A stretch of DNA of 64,000 nucleotides. Origin: Alphaproteobacteria bacterium LSUCC0684. Lineage in GTDB: Bacteria; Pseudomonadota; Alphaproteobacteria; Puniceispirillales; UBA1172. The notes under the pieces were generated by a model. It had not been told where the DNA came from. It saw only the letters and a list, made by a program, of their open reading frames with translations, and made no database searches. The position numbers and the translations under genes are program-made. The stretch lies in contig CP166130.1 in the NCBI GenBank assembly GCA_041228335.1, positions 1,016,638-1,080,637 of the forward strand, in the 5' to 3' direction. This document shows, in pieces, positions 33,280-54,677 of this stretch (positions within the stretch are counted from its first letter, which is position 1; every line of letters starts with the position of its first letter).

Positions 33280-35290
33280 AAACATCCCCTGTCTGGGTCG
33301 TTATCACGAAGCAGTCCTCATTTTGTGGCAATTTCCGCTTGTGTTGGTCTTTGCCATTGACCCCGGGCCATATGTGCTTCTCTGCTGGATTGCCAGTCTT
33401 CTTCTGATGGCGGTTCAGCGATGGCGGTGGATGCTGCTTCTACTTGGTCTGTCGCTGCTTTATCTGCACATGATCTTTCCAGCCCCAAGGGTCGAGTTTT
33501 TTATTGGTATGCTCATCATGATACTTCCCTTGAGTTGGCAATCTGGTGATCATCGACCACTTTCACCAGGTGGTCTTGCGCCAACTATTTTTCTGGTTGG
33601 AACAGTCTTCATATTTCACGTTCAGTTTTTTCTGCTGATGTTGCTTATTGTCTGGTTACTCTCGTTTCTGCTCTGGTTTTCGATGATCTATGCGGGATGG
33701 TCTTTTCGAGAAATTCGCATCCACTGGTGGAGACTGCTCAGCCTAGCCTTTAGTATTTCATTTATAGTTGTTCTGATCTTTGCACTTGTTCCAAGAATAA
33801 ACATAGGAGCAACACCGTTTTTAGCCCATGTACAGAAACAGATCAGGTTGACCGATCAGCTGACTGCCGAAGGGTTCAGCAACCTTCTGGCAGATGATAC
33901 GATTGCCTTTCGTGCCTTTCCCCAAGATGATGTCCCCAGTCTTACTCCATATTGGCGAGTATTCGCCCTTGATCAGCAGAATGAAAATGGCTGGAGCAGG
34001 GGGGAACGTAAAAGTGAGAAAACAATCAAGATGTTATCACTTGATGCGCCATACCGCAGTTTTCAAATTTTGGCCGACAGGCATGACCTTGGCTATCTTC
34101 CGGTTCCGGGATGGCCTGCACATCTTGGAGATGATGAATATTATCTCACGCCCTTCGCTGAGCTTGAAAACCGCAGTTCATCCCATCAGCACGCCACAGT
34201 AAAAGCTTATGACGTCATGGTTGAGATTTCATTGGACCCGAGACCATGGCAAGGCTCAACTCATCTTGGAGATGAGGGCAGGCTTGCAAAATGGGCGAAG
34301 GATAAACGGCAAAAAATGTCTTCCGATCGTGATTTTGCCAATTTTCTTATGGCAAACTTCAGGCAGAATTATGCGTATTCACTCACATCAAGTTATGTCG
34401 CTGGTACATCAAGTCAGGTGCTCGACTCGTTCTTTTTTAAGGGGAAATCTGGGCATTGTTCTCTCTATGCCCAGGCACTGGCAACGGCCTTCAGGGCCGC
34501 AGGAATAAAGGCAAATGTTGTGACCGGCTATCTTGGTGGAGAATGGAACAGCTATGGCCGATACTGGATAGTCCGAAATAACATGGCACATGCCTGGGTA
34601 GAAGCGAGGCTTGATGGAGGCGCCTGGCAGCGTTTCGATCCATCGGCAATGGTTTCCGTCTCAGTCGCCGAACAGGTCGCACAACTGGATTTCGGGCAGG
34701 AGCTACTCAAGACAAGACCAAAGACCCGCCAGAACCCCTTTTGGGTTGAGACAGTATATTGGATAGATTCACTGAATACCCGGGTTACACATATGATCCT
34801 TCAATATGATGCCTCGCCAGTGAAGACGTTATTCAAACGCTTTCCTGGTCTCGACTTCGTCGCTCTTTTCTGGATATTGGCTGGCTTGATGATATCAGGA
34901 AGTCTTGTTGCGATCATGCTCATTGGAGTCAGAGTCTTATTTTCCGGCCTGCATTTCATATCACACCCAGATCAGGGGCGGAGGTTGGAAGGGCAGCTTG
35001 AACATCTGTTGATGCAGGTTGCCTCGCCGCGACAAGCTGGCGAAGGACTTATTGATTATGCGGAAAGATCCTGTGTGAACTGGCCTGAAAGGCTGAAAGC
35101 CCAGACATGTAGCCTTGCCCGCCGTATATATTTTATCCGGTTCAACCCGGAGCCTGCCACACGTGATCGCTTGAAAAATCTTAAGCGAGATATCAAAATG
35201 CATCGTTTTTTGCTTCAATCCATAATCGATCAACAGAGGAACGATGAAAGAGGATCGCAAAAGATTTCCGTGCCCTATTTCCCAAGATAG
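33260..35290 (+). CDS. Membrane transglutaminase-like protein (TgpA/DUF3488 type)
   Basis: A protein of about 676 residues. Its N-terminal part has at least six membrane helices, then comes a periplasmic transglutaminase-like domain with Cys in 'GKSGHCSLYAQALATAFRAA', His in 'RNNMAHAWVEARLDGG' and Asp in 'WQRFDPSA', then a last helix ('FVALFWILAGLMISGSLVAI') and a basic C-terminal tail. The start is ATG 33260 because GGGGAGG stands before it; 33230 would lie deeper inside DUF58. It completes the MoxR-DUF58-TgpA unit, thought to modify or process envelope proteins. Its 3' end overlaps the converging cyclase gene. Confidence 0.9.
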   Translation: MLWRWRENIPCLGRYHEAVLILWQFPLVLVFAIDPGPYVLLCWIASLLLMAVQRWRWMLLLLGLSLLYLHMIFPAPRVEFFIGMLIMILPLSWQSGDHRPLSPGGLAPTIFLVGTVFIFHVQFFLLMLLIVWLLSFLLWFSMIYAGWSFREIRIHWWRLLSLAFSISFIVVLIFALVPRINIGATPFLAHVQKQIRLTDQLTAEGFSNLLADDTIAFRAFPQDDVPSLTPYWRVFALDQQNENGWSRGERKSEKTIKMLSLDAPYRSFQILADRHDLGYLPVPGWPAHLGDDEYYLTPFAELENRSSSHQHATVKAYDVMVEISLDPRPWQGSTHLGDEGRLAKWAKDKRQKMSSDRDFANFLMANFRQNYAYSLTSSYVAGTSSQVLDSFFFKGKSGHCSLYAQALATAFRAAGIKANVVTGYLGGEWNSYGRYWIVRNNMAHAWVEARLDGGAWQRFDPSAMVSVSVAEQVAQLDFGQELLKTRPKTRQNPFWVETVYWIDSLNTRVTHMILQYDASPVKTLFKRFPGLDFVALFWILAGLMISGSLVAIMLIGVRVLFSGLHFISHPDQGRRLEGQLEHLLMQVASPRQAGEGLIDYAERSCVNWPERLKAQTCSLARRIYFIRFNPEPATRDRLKNLKRDIKMHRFLLQSIIDQQRNDERGSQKISVPYFPR

Positions 35291-37386
35291 TAGGACCAGA
35301 GCGTTTGGGGGTAATCCTTTCTGTTTTTGAGCTTGCGGAGGATACTATTCATTTCTGTGGTGTTACCTGCTGCGCGTTCTTGCTGAAGATGTTCATGCAG
35401 GTGAAGGGTTTTTGATGAGAGCAAGAGAGGGGAGAAAACAGTTGTTTTTTCTCGCTTGCCTCGAAGAGTGATCCGGTCCACTTCAATCAAATCACATCTG
35501 CCGGAGGCAAGTGCGGTTGCCTTCGAGACCGAAATGGGAAGACCAGTTTTTTTACTGAACGGCTCCAGTCTGGCGGCAAGATTGACCGCATCGCCAATGC
35601 ATGAATAGTTGAATCGAAAGCTTGATCCAAGATTTCCGACCAGGGTTTTTCCTGTTGCAATGCCGATTCCAATTTGGATTTCCGGGAATTGATCAAGGTC
35701 ATCTGTTTCCGTTTTGATAGACCTGTTGATAGTTGGCAGGGCTTCTTCAAGGGCGATTGCGGCACGGATCGCACAGGCCGCATGATCTTCTCGCGCAATA
35801 GGTGCATTCCAGAACGCCATCAAGGAATCGCCGATATATTTGTCGAGTGTACCGCCATGTTCCAGAATGATGGCAGTTGCTTGATCCATAATGAAGTTCA
35901 CCACCGATGTGAGACGCTGGGGGTTTTCAGCCAGCTTTTCGCTTAAGTTTGTGAAGCCGCGGATATCCATAAAAAGTACTGTGAGTTCCATAGTTCGCCC
36001 GCCGAGGGAAACTGCACTGCCTGATGAATCAATTTCTCGGACCATCGCTGGAGAGAGATACTGGCTGAAGGCAAGTTTAAGTTTCCGGCGGCGACTTTCT
36101 TCAAACCCCGCCCGCGCGCTGATCGCTATCACGCTCAATCCCAGCATGAGTCCAAGCGTGAAATATATATTTCCAATGAGTCCGATGCGAATAAAGGCTT
36201 CGGTGTAGAATACGGCCGCACTAACTGCACACCCGGAAAGGAGGCTGATGGACCATATAAAGGGAAGCCGAAGCATCAAAAGTGCCAAGATGTAGCTGAT
36301 CATGCCCGCCAGCATAATTTCAAGGCTTTTGATTGCCGGCCCGGAATACAAGGTTCGGCCAGATAGGATCTGATGTAGAACCTGAAGGTGCAGATATGGA
36401 CCAGGAAGCACCGGTTCCAGTGAAGTTGAGTGTACATCCTTAAGCCCGGCAGCGGTACTGCCAATTACCACGAAACTGCCAGATATAGTTTCAGCCCAGT
36501 CAGTGTTGTCAGTTTTACCTAGTATCGATACCCCGGAGATGCGGGGAAAACGTGAATTATACCCATGGTGGAGAAGTAGATGCCCGTCCGTATCTGTGGT
36601 GATGATATGATCAGCTGTCTTGATTTGTGTAAGAGCCCGGCCAGTCTTTCTATCTTGTTTCATGACGTGACTTTTGCCTTTGTCAGCAAGTCGGAGCATT
36701 TCAAGTGAAAAAGATGGAATAATCCGGTCTTTTATTCTGGCTATCATAGGCATCCGGCGGACTGTTTTATCCGCATGAAGTCCAAGGCTGACAAATCCTG
36801 CCCCTGGCGAGGTGGCGAGTGCTTCAACTGGGGTGAGAGCGCCAGAGGCGCTTAGAATGGAGGGGGAGGGGAAGCCAATAGACGTGATGGGCACCGGTGC
36901 ATGTATCGGGCGAGATGTTTCCATTTCAAGGAGACTAGTTGCCTGTACCGCCGGTATGCGGGATAGAACCTGACCCAAGAGAGTATCGCCATCTGGCAGA
37001 ATGGCCGCAAGCATCGTTTCGCTGGTATTTGAAAGGCGAGCAATATTTGCCGGGCTGAACCTGTCTTCTTCGGTCATCAGAATATCAATCCCGATCACCA
37101 GTGGACCTGCACGATCAATGCGATCGAGCATCTCTGCCATTACGGCTCTGGGCCAAGGCCATTGACCCAGTTCGCTGATGCTGGTTTCGTCGATATCTAT
37201 GAGCACCAGTTTTTGCGCAATCTCGTCATTGCCTTCAAAAGGATAGAGGCGGTTCAAAAGATCATGAGATGCATTTTGCGTGCGTGTGGTAAATCCACCT
37301 GTATTGCTTACCCCTGCCAACATTACGCTTGCGCAAATCAGCAGAAGTATCGTGGAAATAAGGAGATGAAAGCGCCCTTTTCCCAT
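35275..37386 (-). CDS. CHASE2-domain adenylate/guanylate cyclase (class III)
   Basis: A 703-residue membrane receptor cyclase. A signal-anchor helix is followed by a periplasmic CHASE2 domain (about 30-345, 'LVLIDIDETSISELGQWPWP'), then membrane helices ('AGMISYILALLMLRLPFIW', 'GNIYFTLGLMLGLSVIAISA') and the cytoplasmic catalytic domain (about 480-665). The catalytic block has 'VLFMDIRGFTNLSEKL' with the metal Asp and 'LDKYIGDSLMAFWNAP', where Lys favours adenine, then 'YSCIGDAVNLAARLEP'. It should make cAMP in response to an envelope signal. It begins four bases after the stop of pilC and is the last gene of that transcription unit, which points to a role in pilus control. Confidence 0.9.
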   Translation of the reverse strand: MGKGRFHLLISTILLLICASVMLAGVSNTGGFTTRTQNASHDLLNRLYPFEGNDEIAQKLVLIDIDETSISELGQWPWPRAVMAEMLDRIDRAGPLVIGIDILMTEEDRFSPANIARLSNTSETMLAAILPDGDTLLGQVLSRIPAVQATSLLEMETSRPIHAPVPITSIGFPSPSILSASGALTPVEALATSPGAGFVSLGLHADKTVRRMPMIARIKDRIIPSFSLEMLRLADKGKSHVMKQDRKTGRALTQIKTADHIITTDTDGHLLLHHGYNSRFPRISGVSILGKTDNTDWAETISGSFVVIGSTAAGLKDVHSTSLEPVLPGPYLHLQVLHQILSGRTLYSGPAIKSLEIMLAGMISYILALLMLRLPFIWSISLLSGCAVSAAVFYTEAFIRIGLIGNIYFTLGLMLGLSVIAISARAGFEESRRRKLKLAFSQYLSPAMVREIDSSGSAVSLGGRTMELTVLFMDIRGFTNLSEKLAENPQRLTSVVNFIMDQATAIILEHGGTLDKYIGDSLMAFWNAPIAREDHAACAIRAAIALEEALPTINRSIKTETDDLDQFPEIQIGIGIATGKTLVGNLGSSFRFNYSCIGDAVNLAARLEPFSKKTGLPISVSKATALASGRCDLIEVDRITLRGKREKTTVFSPLLLSSKTLHLHEHLQQERAAGNTTEMNSILRKLKNRKDYPQTLWSYYLGK

Positions 37387-38703: not shown

Positions 38704-40401
38704 TCAACCTAGCACCAGGACTCTTGTGTATTCCTCCACACTGATCAGTTTTTCACGGATCATGTCTCGGGCAATCTCCTGCATGGTTTTAAACCCATCT
38801 ACCCGAGCAGCGCTCAGAATCTCCTGCGGGTTTGCTCCATTCAGGATGGCTCCTTCCAGTTCTGAATTAATCTTGAGAACTTCGTAAATTCCCCGTCGAC
38901 CCTTATAGCCTGTGTGGTTGCAGACATCGCATCCAGCGCCACGATGAGGAATTACATTCCCGGCCTGGTCTTCCGAAAATCCGAGACGGATAAGGCTTTC
39001 CGGGCTGGCGGCATTATCTTCAACAAGGCAGTTCGAACAATTGGCACGAGCCAGTCGCTGAGCAACAATCAGTGATACCGCCGCCGAAACCATGAAAGGC
39101 GGCACGCCCATGTTCATGAGCCGGGATATCGTCGAGATGGCATCGTTTGTATGAAGTGTTGACAATAAAAGGTGCCCGGTGAGAGCTGCCTTGATCGCAA
39201 TATCCACGGTTTCCTGATCACGTATCTCACCCACAAGAATGACTTCGGGGTCCTGGCGAAGAAATGCCCGCAGAATATTGGAAAAGGTGAGCCCTATCTT
39301 TTCATTAGCCTGAACCTGACCTATTCCTTCAAGGTAATATTCAACCGGGTCTTCAGCAGTCATGATATTAAGCGCGGGATTGTTTATCCACTGGAGCGCA
39401 CCGTAAAGCGTGGTCGTTTTGCCTGACCCGGTTGGTCCGGTCACCAGAACCATACCTTGCGGGGCTGAAATCGCCTCCAATACTTTCTTAAAACTTGTTT
39501 CTGAGAGTCCGATACTATCCAGTTTCAAAGCGGGATCACCCTTGAGAATACGCATGACAATGCGCTCACCATTCTTCCCTGGCAGGACATTGAAACGGAA
39601 ATCAATGTCTTCACTTTCATGCCGGATGGTGATGGCCCCGTCCTGGGGAAGCCGTTTTTCCGAAATATCGCAATCAGCCTGAATTTTTAATCGCGTGATA
39701 ACGCTGAGATAATGACGGGTGAGAAAGTCTGAAAATTCATTCCTCACAACAAGTCTTCCATCAATCCGAAAGCGAAGGCGGGCGGTTTCGCGAAAGATTT
39801 CGATATGAATATCACTGGCATTGCAATTTATGGCGGTAAGCAGAATATCATCACAGAATTTCGGGATTCTTTCTTCATTTTCCGGCTGGTATCTGCCCCG
39901 GCGACTTCGTGAAGGGCCTGCGTGAAGACGGGGTTGTGCCTCATCAGATTTTTTGGGATCAAGCACCAGCCGCAGTTTTTCATGTGCTCGCAAATTCTCG
40001 AAAGTTGAAAGCGGGATCAATTGGAATTCAATATTGTAATTTGAAAGAGATTTGAAATTTCCGGCTTGAGATGAAGTTGTAGGATCAACGATGGCCACTT
40101 TAAGAAATCTTCCTTCAACGGCATAAGGAAGTGCTTTGTTGGTTTCAATTACGTCTTTTGGCAGAAGGCTAACCGCGCGACTACCCGGATTGAGTTTCAG
40201 CCGCCGAATTGCATAGGCACGGGATAGCACCGTCTGCACAAGATCCTCATCTATGTTGCCATCTTGAAGAAGAGCCTCAAGCACATCACTTGGGGCGCTA
40301 AGCTCATCTTGAACCATTTTCAGTTTTTCCAGATCAAGACGGTTGGCGGTTTTCAGAACGCGGATCACTTTCTCAGCCACATCATCTTTATAGATGGTCA
40401 T
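38704..40401 (-). CDS. pilB: Pilus assembly ATPase PilB (GspE/MshE family)
   Basis: A 565-residue hexameric ATPase. The N-terminal MshE/GspE-N domain (about 1-150) is followed by the catalytic domain with Walker A 'LVTGPTGSGKTTTLYGAL', the Asp box 'VEYYLEGIGQVQANEK', Walker B 'ILVGEIRDQETVDIA', and the His box 'HLLLSTLHTNDA'. A four-Cys zinc site is present ('ANCSNC' and 'CDVCNHTGYKGR'). In MshE-like relatives the N-terminal domain binds c-di-GMP; whether this one does cannot be told without alignment. Confidence 0.92.
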   Translation of the reverse strand: MTIYKDDVAEKVIRVLKTANRLDLEKLKMVQDELSAPSDVLEALLQDGNIDEDLVQTVLSRAYAIRRLKLNPGSRAVSLLPKDVIETNKALPYAVEGRFLKVAIVDPTTSSQAGNFKSLSNYNIEFQLIPLSTFENLRAHEKLRLVLDPKKSDEAQPRLHAGPSRSRRGRYQPENEERIPKFCDDILLTAINCNASDIHIEIFRETARLRFRIDGRLVVRNEFSDFLTRHYLSVITRLKIQADCDISEKRLPQDGAITIRHESEDIDFRFNVLPGKNGERIVMRILKGDPALKLDSIGLSETSFKKVLEAISAPQGMVLVTGPTGSGKTTTLYGALQWINNPALNIMTAEDPVEYYLEGIGQVQANEKIGLTFSNILRAFLRQDPEVILVGEIRDQETVDIAIKAALTGHLLLSTLHTNDAISTISRLMNMGVPPFMVSAAVSLIVAQRLARANCSNCLVEDNAASPESLIRLGFSEDQAGNVIPHRGAGCDVCNHTGYKGRRGIYEVLKINSELEGAILNGANPQEILSAARVDGFKTMQEIARDMIREKLISVEEYTRVLVLG

Positions 40402-49959: not shown

Positions 49960-50958
49960 ATGGAAAACGCAATCTACGAATATCTTTTGGACATTATAAC
50001 TACGCAAAAGGTTTCCGATTTTCATCTTCACGCCAATGCGCCGCTCGCCTTTCGCTCGGACGGGAAAATCATAAGACGTGAAGATCTCATCATCTCGCCG
50101 GATGAGATTGAGTCTTTCTTAAGGGTTGAACTGGGGGAAGAGGAATTTCAGCTCTTCAAATCCAACGGGGATGTTGATTTTGCGGTTCAATACAAAGGCC
50201 AGCGTTTTCGAGCCAGCGGCTATCGGATGATGGGGGGGTATGCGCTTGTTCTCAGGGTTATTGTTTCCGAGGTACCGCATATTGATATGCTAGGCCTGCC
50301 GGCGGCGGTGCATGATGTCTTGTCTGAAAGGGATGGACTCGTTCTGGTCACTGGAGCCACAGGTTCGGGTAAGTCCACGAGCCTTGCCGCGATGATCGAC
50401 AAGATCAACCGTGAAAGAAGCGAGAATATCATCACCATAGAGGATCCAATCGAGTTTATTCATGTTTCACAGAAATCTCTGATCACTCAACGTGAGGTTG
50501 GACGTGATACAGAAAGTTTTGCCCGGGCACTTAAAGGTGCTTTGCGGCAGGATCCCGATATCATCCTCATGGGAGAGTTGCGGGATTATGAAACCGTTTC
50601 CATGGCAATGACGGCTGCGGAGACCGGACATCTTGTTTTTGGCACGCTTCATACAAATGGGGCACCGGAGACAATCAACCGAATTATCGATGTGTTTCCA
50701 GCCGCCGAACAACCACAGGCAAGGTCACAGCTTTCGCAGTCACTCCGTCTTGTTCTAACCCAGCGTCTCCTACCCAGGCAGGGTGGTGGCCGCATAGGTG
50801 CGTTCGAAGTCATGGTCAATGTCACGGCTGTTGCAAACCTTATCCGGGAGGCAAAAATCATACAGATTGAAACGATCATGCAGACAGGGGCTCAATATGG
50901 CATGATTACAATGGATAAGTATATTGATATTCTTAAACAAAAGAACCTAATCAATTAG
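49960..50958 (+). CDS. pilT: Pilus retraction ATPase PilT
   Basis: A 332-residue hexameric ATPase. The N-terminal PAS-like domain ('VSDFHLHANAPLAFRSDGKI') is followed by Walker A 'LVTGATGSGKSTSLAAM', the Asp box 'NIITIEDPIEFIH', Walker B 'DIILMGELRDYETV' and the His box 'HLVFGTLHTNGAPETINRII'. These match PilT more than PilB, and the C-terminus lacks the zinc site. It depolymerises pili for twitching or DNA uptake. AGAGGA stands before the ATG. Confidence 0.92.
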   Translation: MENAIYEYLLDIITTQKVSDFHLHANAPLAFRSDGKIIRREDLIISPDEIESFLRVELGEEEFQLFKSNGDVDFAVQYKGQRFRASGYRMMGGYALVLRVIVSEVPHIDMLGLPAAVHDVLSERDGLVLVTGATGSGKSTSLAAMIDKINRERSENIITIEDPIEFIHVSQKSLITQREVGRDTESFARALKGALRQDPDIILMGELRDYETVSMAMTAAETGHLVFGTLHTNGAPETINRIIDVFPAAEQPQARSQLSQSLRLVLTQRLLPRQGGGRIGAFEVMVNVTAVANLIREAKIIQIETIMQTGAQYGMITMDKYIDILKQKNLIN

Positions 50959-51089
50959 ATAACACCAAAAGCTAAATAAAAATCTTAAGCATAGAAAAGT
51001 CAGAATTTAGTTGCATTGGCGCATTTGATCCATCATTTCGGGAGACATGACTGGCTAATCTCAGCCACCTGAAATTGAGGTATTAAACT

Positions 51090-51623
51090 ATGTCTTTTCC
51101 ATCAAAACAAAAGGGTTTTTCCCTCATAGAGCTTCTGGTGGTGGTTGCCATCATCGGTATTCTGGCTTCCGTTGGTATAGTTGGCTATCAACGATATATC
51201 GACAGTACCAAGGCAGATGTTGCCAAAACAAACGCGCAGTCGGTGGCTCGCTGGATGAAAACGAGCGGCATTGCCCGTGCCGGGGGAATCGCGCTTGAAC
51301 CTGAACAATGCAAGAAGGGCGTTGGTGATAACATGACCGCTTGTCTTTCCAATGCCACGGCAAGCACCGGACCTCTTGCTGATATCACTAATCCCTATCA
51401 CAATGCGTATGATGCGAGCACAACCATTCATGATAATGCCAGCGTTTCTGGTAGCGAGGGAGATCCGAGTTGTAGCGATGCCAGCAATCATGGCAAGGTA
51501 GTTCTTCGGATGTCATCGGGCACATATGACCACAACTCCGACAGCAATGATATCGAAATCGGGTATTGCAACGGCAATGACGGCAATGGAGCCTTTGCCA
51601 GCGTAGACACGGTTACCTGGTAG
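51090..51623 (+). CDS. Type IV major pilin-like protein
   Basis: A 177-residue prepilin. The leader of nine residues ends in Gly, and the mature protein begins with 'FSLIELLVVVAIIGILASVG', the classical hydrophobic helix with Glu5. The globular part contains four cysteines in two pairs ('EQCKKGVGDNMTACLS', 'GDPSCSDAS' and 'EIGYCNGND') and is Asp/Asn/Ser-rich, as in marine pilins. It is the only pilin-like gene in the window; no minor pilins are seen. A terminator follows directly. Confidence 0.9.
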   Translation: MSFPSKQKGFSLIELLVVVAIIGILASVGIVGYQRYIDSTKADVAKTNAQSVARWMKTSGIARAGGIALEPEQCKKGVGDNMTACLSNATASTGPLADITNPYHNAYDASTTIHDNASVSGSEGDPSCSDASNHGKVVLRMSSGTYDHNSDSNDIEIGYCNGNDGNGAFASVDTVTW

Positions 51624-51632
51624 AATGAGGGG

Positions 51633-51659
51633 AACGAGGCCTTCACGGGCCTCGTTTTT
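51633..51659 (+). terminator. Rho-independent terminator after the pilin gene
   Basis: AACGAGGCC pairs perfectly with GGCCTCGTT over a six-base loop and runs into TTT. It ends six bases before the STAS start codon. Confidence 0.85.
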
Positions 51660-51664
51660 CAATA

Positions 51665-52147
51665 ATGTATTCGATTGATATCATTGATGGCACAGCTCAC
51701 CTGGTTCTTGCCGGGGATATTGACCTCCAGACAACCGCAGACCTTAAGGCTGAAATTCAGCAACTTTCAGGAATTGTGCTCTTGGAAATCAATGCCAGTT
51801 CCGTAAGATATATCGACTCGAGCGGTATTGCCGTGCTCTTGATAGCCCGACAGCGTTGCCATGAATATGGGATCGAATTGCAGGTGCCCGTGATCAGCGC
51901 TCCTGTTTTCCGGGTTCTGGAGGTGGCAAAGCTGGATACACTTCTTCCGATCGGAGAAGTGGTGCCGGTCGAGGATGCGGTAACGGAAAATTTTGGTCTC
52001 ACCACGTTGGATGAAGTTGATCAAAAAGCCCCAAAGGATAAGGCGCTAACTGGTAGTGATATCGACAATAGCTTAACGGATCCGGATACAGACCTGAGCA
52101 CTGATTCTGAAACGGCTCCTGATATCAAACCTGGGACATTTCGTTGA
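51665..52147 (+). CDS. STAS-domain anti-anti-sigma-factor-like protein
   Basis: A 160-residue protein. The STAS domain (about 1-95) has 'LVLAGDIDLQTTADLKAEI' and the phospho-acceptor motif 'VRYIDSSGIAVLL'. The remaining 65 residues are acidic and disordered. In partner switching the unphosphorylated STAS protein binds the RsbW-type kinase and frees its target. No Shine-Dalgarno is visible before the ATG, because a terminator occupies that space. Its stop overlaps the phosphatase start. Confidence 0.88.
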   Translation: MYSIDIIDGTAHLVLAGDIDLQTTADLKAEIQQLSGIVLLEINASSVRYIDSSGIAVLLIARQRCHEYGIELQVPVISAPVFRVLEVAKLDTLLPIGEVVPVEDAVTENFGLTTLDEVDQKAPKDKALTGSDIDNSLTDPDTDLSTDSETAPDIKPGTFR

Positions 52148-53454
52148 ACTGGCGGGCCGCTTTCCCTATGATCGAAAAAAGCATCACCGAAAACATGGAA
52201 GAAACTAACGGGCTCAATCTGGTTGCCGGGCTCATGCAGAAGTTCGGGGAAACAGGCGATGCTGTGGTGGCCTTGCGATGGGCTCTGCCGAAAGTTCTGG
52301 AGGAGGTGAAGGCGGAGGCTGGATCCCTTTTTATGTACCGTGATGAGGATGCCATGCTTGAATGTGTGGTATGCCTAGGGCCGGTGGATATAACAGGCAT
52401 GTTGGTACCGGTGGAGCAAGGGCTGGTTGGGCGGGCTTTTTCCACTGGTGAAGCTGAAATCGTATCCAACGCCGAAACAGATGGGGCGCATTACCATCTC
52501 GCAGATGCAAGATCAGGGTTTCGCACGATTACCACCATAACAGCCCCCGTAAAGCTGGGAGATGACCGCTTCGGCGTCATAGAGGCAATCAATCGCAGAA
52601 AAGAAAACATCTCTGAAACCATTTGTTTTTTTGAGCCTTCTGATCTCTCTCTGCTATCTTCACTTGCATCTGTACTCGCTATGGCAGTAGTCAACATGCG
52701 CCTCGCTGAAAAAGTTATTTCTGATCAGATACTGCAACGTGATCTTGATCAGGCAACCGAAGCGCAGGCAACCCTTATACCTGATATTGATCCAACGGGA
52801 CATATCGCTGGGAAGGTCTTGCCTGCGCGGCAACTTTCCGGTGATTTCATGGATTTTCGGCATATTGGCTCCCGCATAATGTTCTGCCAGGGGGACGTGG
52901 CGGGTAAAGGAATTACAGCGGCGCTGTTGATGGCGCAGGTGGTCTCTGTTTTTCGTCTTCTGGCAAGGCAGGAGAAAAATATTCGCGTGATTGCAAGCCA
53001 GCTTAATGATGAATTTATTCGTAATGGCTCAGATCAATATATCACATTTGTTCTGGGATGGCTTGATATCCAAACAGGAGAGGCGGAGCTAATCAATTGT
53101 GGACACGGCCCGATCATCTGGCAGGATGACCAGACCGGTAAGATTGAAATGATCCCATCGCATACTGTGCCGCTTGGTATTGCTGATCTTTTTGTTGAAA
53201 CACTTGTTCCATGGAAAGGAAATCTTGCCTGTTCCGCGCTTTATTTGGCTACCGATGGGATTACCGAAGCTCTTTCAGATGGCAAGGAGTTGGGAATTGA
53301 AGGTCTTGCTCAAATCATCAAAACTCACCGTAATCTTTCCAGCTCGAAGCGGGTTACCTCGATCATGCGCCGCTTCTTGGAAGGTAAGTTGATCACCCAT
53401 GATGATGCAAGTCTTCTGGTCGTCACTGGCACGGGCCAGATGAGGGATGCATGA
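52144..53454 (+). CDS. GAF-PP2C (SpoIIE-type) serine phosphatase
   Basis: A protein of about 436 residues. An N-terminal GAF sensor (about 25-195, 'FGVIEAINRRKENISETICF') precedes the phosphatase (about 215-430) with metal motifs 'LSGDFMDFRHIG', 'CQGDVAGKGITAALLMAQ', 'YLATDGITEALSDG' and 'THDDASLLVV'. It should dephosphorylate the STAS partner. The TTG at 52144 overlaps the STAS stop; the ATGs at 52168 and 52195 are alternatives that keep the domains. Confidence 0.9.
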   Translation: MNWRAAFPMIEKSITENMEETNGLNLVAGLMQKFGETGDAVVALRWALPKVLEEVKAEAGSLFMYRDEDAMLECVVCLGPVDITGMLVPVEQGLVGRAFSTGEAEIVSNAETDGAHYHLADARSGFRTITTITAPVKLGDDRFGVIEAINRRKENISETICFFEPSDLSLLSSLASVLAMAVVNMRLAEKVISDQILQRDLDQATEAQATLIPDIDPTGHIAGKVLPARQLSGDFMDFRHIGSRIMFCQGDVAGKGITAALLMAQVVSVFRLLARQEKNIRVIASQLNDEFIRNGSDQYITFVLGWLDIQTGEAELINCGHGPIIWQDDQTGKIEMIPSHTVPLGIADLFVETLVPWKGNLACSALYLATDGITEALSDGKELGIEGLAQIIKTHRNLSSSKRVTSIMRRFLEGKLITHDDASLLVVTGTGQMRDA

Positions 53455-53876
53455 TGAGCCCCCATGCCATGAGAACAATGTTCCCGGCGACACTTTCCAG
53501 TCTTGCTAAGAGCAGGAAATTCATCAGGCAGGCGTTAGTTTCATTTAATCTTGATGAATATGAGACGGATATCCAGCTGGCGGTCGGTGAAGTGATGCAG
53601 AACATTATCCGTCATGGATATGGAGGTGGGGATACTAGTGGCCAAATTACCATCAAGATCTACTGCAATCATTCCTCAAGGCAGATGTTTTGCTGGATAA
53701 GGGACACAGCCCCGCCGGCAATGGCAGGGGAGTGGTTTTCACATGAATTGCACCGCAAACCTGAAGATGGAGGACTAGGGCTTGGGCTGATACAAACTCT
53801 TACTGAAAAATATGAAATTACCTCCGGGCGAACGGGCAATCTTTTTCACCTGGTTTTTGCTCTTGAAGATGGCTGA
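53451..53876 (+). CDS. RsbW-like serine/threonine kinase (HATPase)
   Basis: A 141-residue GHKL ATPase. The N-box is 'AVGEVMQNIIRHGYGGG', the Asp in 'CWIRDTAPPAM' holds adenine and the last glycine box is 'GGLGLGLIQTLTEKYEI'. It is the kinase/anti-factor partner of STAS proteins. It overlaps the PP2C stop (ATGA). No sigma factor lies nearby, so the downstream target is unknown. Confidence 0.87.
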   Translation: MMSPHAMRTMFPATLSSLAKSRKFIRQALVSFNLDEYETDIQLAVGEVMQNIIRHGYGGGDTSGQITIKIYCNHSSRQMFCWIRDTAPPAMAGEWFSHELHRKPEDGGLGLGLIQTLTEKYEITSGRTGNLFHLVFALEDG

Positions 53877-53879
53877 TCT

Positions 53880-54677
53880 ATGAGAGTAAAAATACGGCAA
53901 TCAGGTATCGCCATCCCTGAACTTCGATATGTTTTATGCCGCTGGCCTTCCAGTCTTTATTTTCTGGAACAGATGATACAACAAAGACAGGCGCCGTTCT
54001 TCCAGAAGATAGTGATCTGGGCTGGGGGCTGGCCATCATACACTCCTCATAAAATAAGAAAGCGTCTTTGTCGGGAAGTGACGCTAAATCCTCATTGCAA
54101 TAGTTATCATCATCCATGGCATACTGTAGCGGTGGTCGTTCAGGCAGCGCTTATCGGGAGATGGGCAAGATTGCCCCCTCGGGATCAGCGAATGTTGCTG
54201 CTGGCCGCACTATGCCATGATTTTGATCATCGTGGACGATTTGCAAGTCTGAAAACTGGTAGGGAAGAACGTCGATCAGCTCTCAAGGCTGGGCGTCTGC
54301 TTTTCACCAGGTCTGGATCTGGGATTTTGCGGCGACGTTTTGAGGCAATGATTATGTCAACCGCAAGGGACGGTGCCAAGTCAGCTATAAAGATGGATCA
54401 TGCTACCGCGATTCTGCGTGATGCTGATGTTTTTGGCTCACTATTCTTTCGGGTAGTGACCGCGACCAATTTCACGAAAGCAGTACTTCGTGAAAAAACA
54501 CAACATAAATTAAAACCGTCCAAGGCTGAACGTGAATTAAAGGAGTTTCATGCTTTGGTTTTACAGCGGGGTTTTGATCATCAGGCTACAAGAAAAATGG
54601 CGGCCCTGGCCGGTAATTACCCTGCCGCAATACATATTTCACCCGGCGCAGCTAAAGGCCTTGGATTTTCCAGTTAG
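53880..54677 (+). CDS. HD-domain phosphohydrolase resembling class I cyclic-nucleotide phosphodiesterase
   Basis: A 265-residue protein whose catalytic block has 'SYHHPWHTVAVVVQA' (about residues 76-89) and 'LCHDFDHRGRFASLK' (about 111-125). These fit the class I PDE metal sites (YHNxxH and HDxxHxG) closely, apart from Ala where the signature has Asn or Gln. A later Asp in 'RDADVFGSLFF' fits the last metal ligand. It starts three bases after the kinase stop. The cluster also encodes an adenylate cyclase, so cAMP is the most likely substrate; this is inferred. Confidence 0.75.
   Translation: MRVKIRQSGIAIPELRYVLCRWPSSLYFLEQMIQQRQAPFFQKIVIWAGGWPSYTPHKIRKRLCREVTLNPHCNSYHHPWHTVAVVVQAALIGRWARLPPRDQRMLLLAALCHDFDHRGRFASLKTGREERRSALKAGRLLFTRSGSGILRRRFEAMIMSTARDGAKSAIKMDHATAILRDADVFGSLFFRVVTATNFTKAVLREKTQHKLKPSKAERELKEFHALVLQRGFDHQATRKMAALAGNYPAAIHISPGAAKGLGFSS

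Follow-up and report, generated by a model that had tools for sequence, protein, structure and literature searches.

A compact HD-domain protein resembling class I cyclic-nucleotide phosphodiesterases, encoded behind a partner switch at an alphaproteobacterial type IV pilus locus

Class I phosphodiesterases (PDE1-11, PF00233) are described as mainly eukaryotic, and their published metal motif is H(X)3H(X)25-35D/E (PMC4320098). The conserved purine-binding Gln of these enzymes is known as the glutamine switch; in HD phosphatases the residue three positions ahead of the first metal His is typically an Arg (PMC8177086). The closest described operon is SiaABCD of Pseudomonas aeruginosa, whose PP2C phosphatase, kinase and antagonist govern SiaD, a diguanylate cyclase encoded in the same operon, through direct binding of SiaC to SiaD (PMC7647112, PMC8457831). 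Our literature searches brought up no account of a class I-type PDE from bacteria, nor of a partner switch with an HD phosphodiesterase.

The locus studied here lies in a window (the whole stretch of DNA that was analysed) of 64,000 nucleotides from Alphaproteobacteria bacterium LSUCC0684. Its relevant features are as follows.

35275-37386, minus strand: CHASE2-class III nucleotidyl cyclase, the sole PF00211 match in the genome
37390-38622, minus strand: PilC/GspF-like protein (T2SSF, 3.6e-55)
38704-40401, minus strand: PilB/GspE-like ATPase (T2SSE, 1.4e-121)
49960-50958, plus strand: PilT/PilU family ATPase (TIGR01420, 3.9e-125)
51090-51623, plus strand: type IV prepilin-like protein (from sequence scans)
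51665-52147, plus strand: STAS antagonist with the serine of a DSSG motif (STAS_2, 2.4e-11)
52144-53454, plus strand: GAF-SpoIIE (PP2C) phosphatase (SpoIIE, 2.2e-32; catalytic motifs intact)
53451-53876, plus strand: RsbW-like serine kinase (HATPase_c_2, 3.2e-20; N and G boxes intact)
53880-54677, plus strand: predicted compact HD phosphohydrolase with a class I PDE-like active site, 265 aa, ATG start
54105-54137, plus strand: YHHPWHTVAVV, holding H77 (general-acid His position), H81 (putative metal ligand) and V85, all three invariant
54213-54236, plus strand: CHDFDHRG (aa 112-119), holding H113-D114 (putative metal ligands), H117 and G119, invariant in the alignment
54417-54440, plus strand: RDADVFGS, in which D183 takes the fourth metal ligand position in the alignment
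54564-54575, plus strand: QRGF (aa 229-232), candidate counterpart of the QxGF of the PDE purine clamp; the Q varies in relatives

On the plus strand the PilT-family ATPase and the prepilin are followed by STAS, GAF-SpoIIE, the RsbW-like kinase and then the HD protein. The STAS and SpoIIE genes overlap, as do those for SpoIIE and RsbW, and a gap of 3 nt separates RsbW from the HD gene. The initial annotation had called the HD gene the last of a partner-switching operon, and the STAS-SpoIIE-RsbW-HD run confirms this. The switch is of the RsbW/RsbV/RsbU type, having a PP2C phosphatase, a GHKL kinase and a STAS antagonist with a phosphorylatable Ser (DSSG), and the catalytic motifs of all three proteins are intact. 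On the minus strand a secretin, a PilN/M-like, a PilB-like and a PilC-like gene precede the CHASE2-class III cyclase, which begins 3 nt past the pilC-like stop and so appears to close a type IV pilus operon. The pilus locus thus ends in the cyclase on one arm and in the PDE-like HD protein on the other. The Lys/Asp/Asn/Arg motifs of the cyclase are intact; in known class III cyclases the Lys/Asp pair reads adenine. Three cNMP-binding domains are found in the genome.

Like SiaABCD, the plus-strand operon brings together a PP2C phosphatase, a kinase and a STAS-like antagonist, with a (here putative) second-messenger enzyme encoded last (PMC7647112, PMC8457831). It differs in that the last gene encodes a PDE-like HD protein and not a cyclase, and in that the switch genes match HATPase_c_2 and STAS/STAS_2, not DUF6272 or SiaC. 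Does the switch act on the HD protein, or is the HD gene a mere passenger at the operon end, with no functional tie to STAS, SpoIIE or RsbW? The operon of pilT, pilin, STAS, SpoIIE and RsbW occurs without the HD gene in one relative (G078) and probably in a second (G130, whose contig extends about 220 bases past RsbW), SpoIIE-RsbW stand without it in a third (G073), and two loci (L022 and L081) have the HD gene without RsbW or SpoIIE. Because each module thus occurs without the other in some relatives, neither requires the other. Against the passenger reading, the HD gene lies directly after RsbW on all eight relatives' contigs that bear both modules; SiaABCD is a switch that drives a second-messenger enzyme encoded last in its operon; and the same order contains a SiaABC-type switch joined to a class III cyclase. 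We regard the absence of a functional tie as a serious possibility that falls a little short of probable; it is compatible with a PDE function for the protein. The initial annotation had proposed that STAS or RsbW binding sets the activity of the HD protein, and the SiaABCD precedent together with the SiaABC-type switch joined to a cyclase makes such control plausible by analogy.

The pilT-pilin-STAS-SpoIIE-RsbW order (49960-54677 in the window, its last gene being HD; also L063 and L065) recurs throughout the order whether or not an HD gene follows, pointing to a pilus-related role of the partner switch itself. The SiaA/SiaB/SiaC-type switches joined to a class III cyclase, in place of SiaD, lie at L147:1168-5339 and L148:577-4946 (genomes G109 and G123); there is a weak match to the SiaD model (E 1.3e-4) in aa 8-71, at the N-terminus of the L147 cyclase.

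The HD gene at 53880-54677 is real and conserved, with homologues in 13 out of 136 genomes from its order when the genome of the window is included. These form a compact family of about 240-270 aa, and the homologues have 21-37% identity to the window protein. Residues 75-86 of the latter read SYHHPWHTVAVV, and the spacing H77-x3-H81-x32-D114 agrees exactly with the published H(X)3H(X)25-35D/E motif. The resemblance of CHDFDHRG and the HxxxH motif to class I PDE metal sites, noticed in the initial annotation, is upheld by this exact spacing and by the invariance of the residues. Equally, the stretch HDFDHRGRFASL fits what we take to be the PROSITE PDEase_I pattern except for Ala in place of Asn/Gln, just as had been described.

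In Pfam the best match of the window protein is PDEase_I (E 0.002; 18.3 bits against a cut-off of 24.8, with 24 aa matched), and generic HD follows at E 0.094. The profile comparison proposed earlier therefore comes out in two parts: PDEase_I is ahead of generic HD, but its score is below the cut-off. A best match to a (p)ppGpp or other HD family had been named as the finding that would tell against the annotation, and PDEase_I was found best instead. The NCBIfam scan gave no match, and in the Pfam and NCBIfam scans no SpoT-type, HD-GYP, YfbR or dGTPase family rose over its cut-off. HD-domain phosphatases (SpoT, YfbR, dGTPase) share the H...HD...D metal motif; the window protein differs from them in having no such family match and in lacking the Arg three residues before the first His (PMC8177086), a position that is His78 here and H, N, Q or D in the family. 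It also lacks two marks of HD-GYP c-di-GMP phosphodiesterases, having no GYP and no HH between D114 and D183.

Invariant in the 13 family members are H77, H81, V85, H113, D114, H117, G119, E130, S133, T161, D181, A182, D183, S187, T199, E205 and G231, hence all the residues of HxxxH...HDxxH. All 13 members scanned match Pfam PDEase_I (best E 4.8e-6). A PDB search with the 13-member profile found PDE10A as best match (E 3.8e-7, over about 60 residues) and PDE8A and PDE5A as well, and hhalign against PDE4D and PDE5A (sequences identical to PDB chains) gave a probability of 91.5 over 57 columns. At the level of sequence, then, the class I PDE resemblance is above chance, and since significant similarity to PDEs spans only about 57-60 residues around the two motifs, homology is secure for the HD core only.

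Other hallmarks of the class fare less well. The signature Asn/Gln after HDxxHxG is variable in relatives, and the first His of HxxxH is followed by H, N, Q or D where PDEs, with their YHN, have Asn, so neither position is conserved in the family alignments. For the conserved purine-binding Gln, which the initial annotation had proposed to look for, the sequence offers one candidate: QRGF sits 46 residues past D183 (the Asp-to-Gln distance in PDE4D is 51 by sequence count), and its Q is found only in the window protein, with E, K, A, R, T or S in relatives, cyclase-coupled ones included. Because this position varies, a PDE-type purine clamp cannot be claimed, and conservation argues against such a clamp as a family trait. 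With its sub-cut-off score, its Ala at the signature Asn/Gln and its unconserved purine-clamp Gln, the window protein is not a clean member of Pfam PDEase_I, and formal membership fails on two of the features tested, the score and the signature residue.

Structure prediction extends the comparison. Two AF2 models are confident: that of the window protein has pLDDT 84.2 and pTM 0.86 (alignment of 13 sequences), and that of a homologue from a second order, described below, has pLDDT 86.9 and pTM 0.86 (28 sequences). Compared with PDE7A, the window model gives Z 17.7 and rmsd 3.6 Å with 240/265 aa aligned, and the homologue Z 17.9 and rmsd 3.2 Å with 225/239 aa aligned; Z below about 13 in helical proteins may reflect a common arrangement, and both values exceed this. 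The structure prediction proposed with the initial annotation gives a nearly full-length match to class I PDEs in two predicted models. For both models the best 50 PDB entries in structural alignment are exclusively class I PDEs, although the VIA and Foldseek lists are filled by many PDE entries, which mask other HD families. Raw Foldseek results are weaker (best E 4.4e-4 for the window model and 6.9e-3 for the homologue, TM about 0.5-0.6), and compact phage HD phosphohydrolases reach about the same TM-score as PDEs against the model. The modelled fold is PDE-like, and with lists so crowded by PDE entries our claim does not extend to its uniqueness. A class I PDE-like fold and metal site are well supported. 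Shared with class I PDEs are H(X)3H(X)25-35D, HDxDHxG, the fourth Asp, the His at the general-acid position and the near end-to-end match of the predicted fold; the differences are in length (300-340 aa in class I PDEs, ~240-270 aa here), in the absence of a conserved signature Asn and purine Gln, and in being borne on bacterial operons.

A class-wide search recovered compact HD homologues (family f99) in small-genome alphaproteobacteria. At three loci (L109-L111) the gene for a GAF-GAF-PAS-class III cyclase of 768-770 aa ends in a stop codon that overlaps the HD start. When all 32 genomes of this second order were considered, the HD gene was present in 20, and in 18 of these 20 a GAF-GAF-PAS class III cyclase gene stands immediately 5' of it, 17 of the pairs having ATGA overlaps and one a gap of a few bases. 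The cyclase-adjacent cases come from seven genera, and HD identity to the L109 protein drops among them to 48%. Three of the genomes were counted and have two class III cyclases each; if there is about one gene per kb, chance adjacency would be some 1 in 700 per independent event. Being related, the 18 cases amount to few events, perhaps one, kept by selection. In a maximum-likelihood tree the second-order clade groups with the compact family at 100/100 and nests within the window's family as sister to the window protein, L014 and L015 (97/94); as the tree is midpoint-rooted only and the window row is on a long branch, membership of the compact group is more certain than this precise sister placement. 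Across both orders H77, H81, H113, D114 and D183 are invariant or nearly so.

The two exceptions (L141 and L142, in G898 and G880) belong to one clade in which the cyclase has been lost and the flanking genes, a small DUF192-like protein upstream and an outer-membrane efflux protein downstream, have been kept. In both the DAD motif has drifted (TAD, SSD), with the last Asp retained. In L142 the ATGA overlap persists, now with a short tail (MKAK*) similar to the C-terminal end of the cyclase.

The strongest argument for a cyclic mononucleotide as substrate is cyclase adjacency. Gene context ties the family to class III cyclases in the second order, but in the window's order there is no clear co-occurrence, the presence of the HD gene and of class III cyclases being not clearly associated (10/13 vs 97/123); the pairing may go back to a single ancestral event that one order has retained. 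No class III cyclase match was obtained in at least five genomes with an HD gene (G107, G115, G506, G620 and G621, some of them incomplete assemblies), so the substrate is not settled. Two of these five have compact HD forms and three have long or multi-domain ones. Long-form alphaproteobacterial HD proteins (310-410 aa; L092-L097, L102-L107) belong to the same superfamily and have in common the motifs YHNxxH...HDxxHDGxxN, T-D and DAD; they form a separate group (support 100/100), with cyclases elsewhere in their genomes and no partner-switch operon in the loci read. In one genome (G621; L101/L108) a frame of more than 1000 aa holds two tandem long-form copies, the second of which has CHWHHTG in place of HDxxHxG and looks degenerate.

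Because the protein has a PDE-like build and its nearest relatives are stop/start-coupled to a cyclase, we predict a bacterial cyclic-nucleotide PDE, and on balance expect it to hydrolyse a cyclic mononucleotide, cAMP being more likely than cGMP. The protein would be a metal-dependent HD phosphohydrolase with a class I PDE-like catalytic fold, its catalytic metal held by H81, H113, D114 and D183, a second metal by D114 and waters, and H77 acting as general acid. It would oppose the class III cyclase at 35275-37386, at the other arm of the same pilus locus, as its counterparts in the second order would oppose the translationally coupled GAF-GAF-PAS cyclase. Because the HD gene is placed after STAS-SpoIIE-RsbW, these proteins would be a likely but optional regulator of HD level or activity, serving pilus or surface behaviour.

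A rather unlikely alternative is that the protein, still an HD phosphohydrolase with this fold, has some other nucleotide or phosphoester as its substrate (as a nucleotidase, or acting on a 2',3'-cyclic nucleotide, a dinucleotide or an alarmone) and looks like a PDE only through the shared HD core. The unconserved purine Gln and Asn, the HD-bearing genomes without a class III cyclase, the restriction of sequence similarity to the core and the phage phosphohydrolases among the Foldseek matches all suit this alternative, but it leaves the conserved class III cyclase operon unexplained, and the lack of any SpoT-type, HD-GYP, YfbR or dGTPase match, the His78 where phosphatases have Arg (PMC8177086) and the near end-to-end alignment of both models with class I PDEs stand against it. 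That the protein is catalytically dead, and instead regulates the switch or the cyclase by binding a cyclic nucleotide or a partner, is very improbable: a short C-terminal region without a conserved purine clamp and the drift of DAD where the cyclase is gone could be so read, but the last Asp stays even there, and the invariance of the metal-site residues argues that catalysis is kept.

Returning to the predicted cyclic-nucleotide PDE, the full picture, in which class I-like prokaryotic PDEs that recognise cyclic mononucleotides with no conserved glutamine clamp are paired one-to-one with a class III cyclase in one order and controlled by STAS/RsbW at a type IV pilus locus in another, is put forward tentatively, as a possibility we would not yet call probable. 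If true, the HD protein would be a candidate cAMP-degrading enzyme of these alphaproteobacteria, a compact cyclase-coupled bacterial family would bear on the origin of eukaryotic PDEs, and the breakdown of cyclic mononucleotides would join the synthesis of cyclic-di-GMP among the processes under partner-switch control. This reading can be tested directly in the cyclase-HD operons.

Wider scans placed the family further. Among 398 genomes of Pseudomonadota there was no full-length PDEase_I, and the one PDEase_I match over the cut-off spans the first 51 positions only. Many phylum-wide matches (family f42) were dropped as HD domains of CCA-type nucleotidyltransferases; this identity was judged by eye, the nucleotidyltransferase part being visible in three f42 sequences read fully. 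A scan of contigs with the single HD protein as query gave no match, and a profile scan gave nine loci, most of them in genomes already counted as relatives. A new one (L081, on NZEI01000013.1) is in a MAG labelled Gammaproteobacteria, and its genes are arranged as in this alphaproteobacterial order (HD, ParA-like, Rieske, YdiU, AsnC, Ald); the label is therefore doubtful, and probably wrong.
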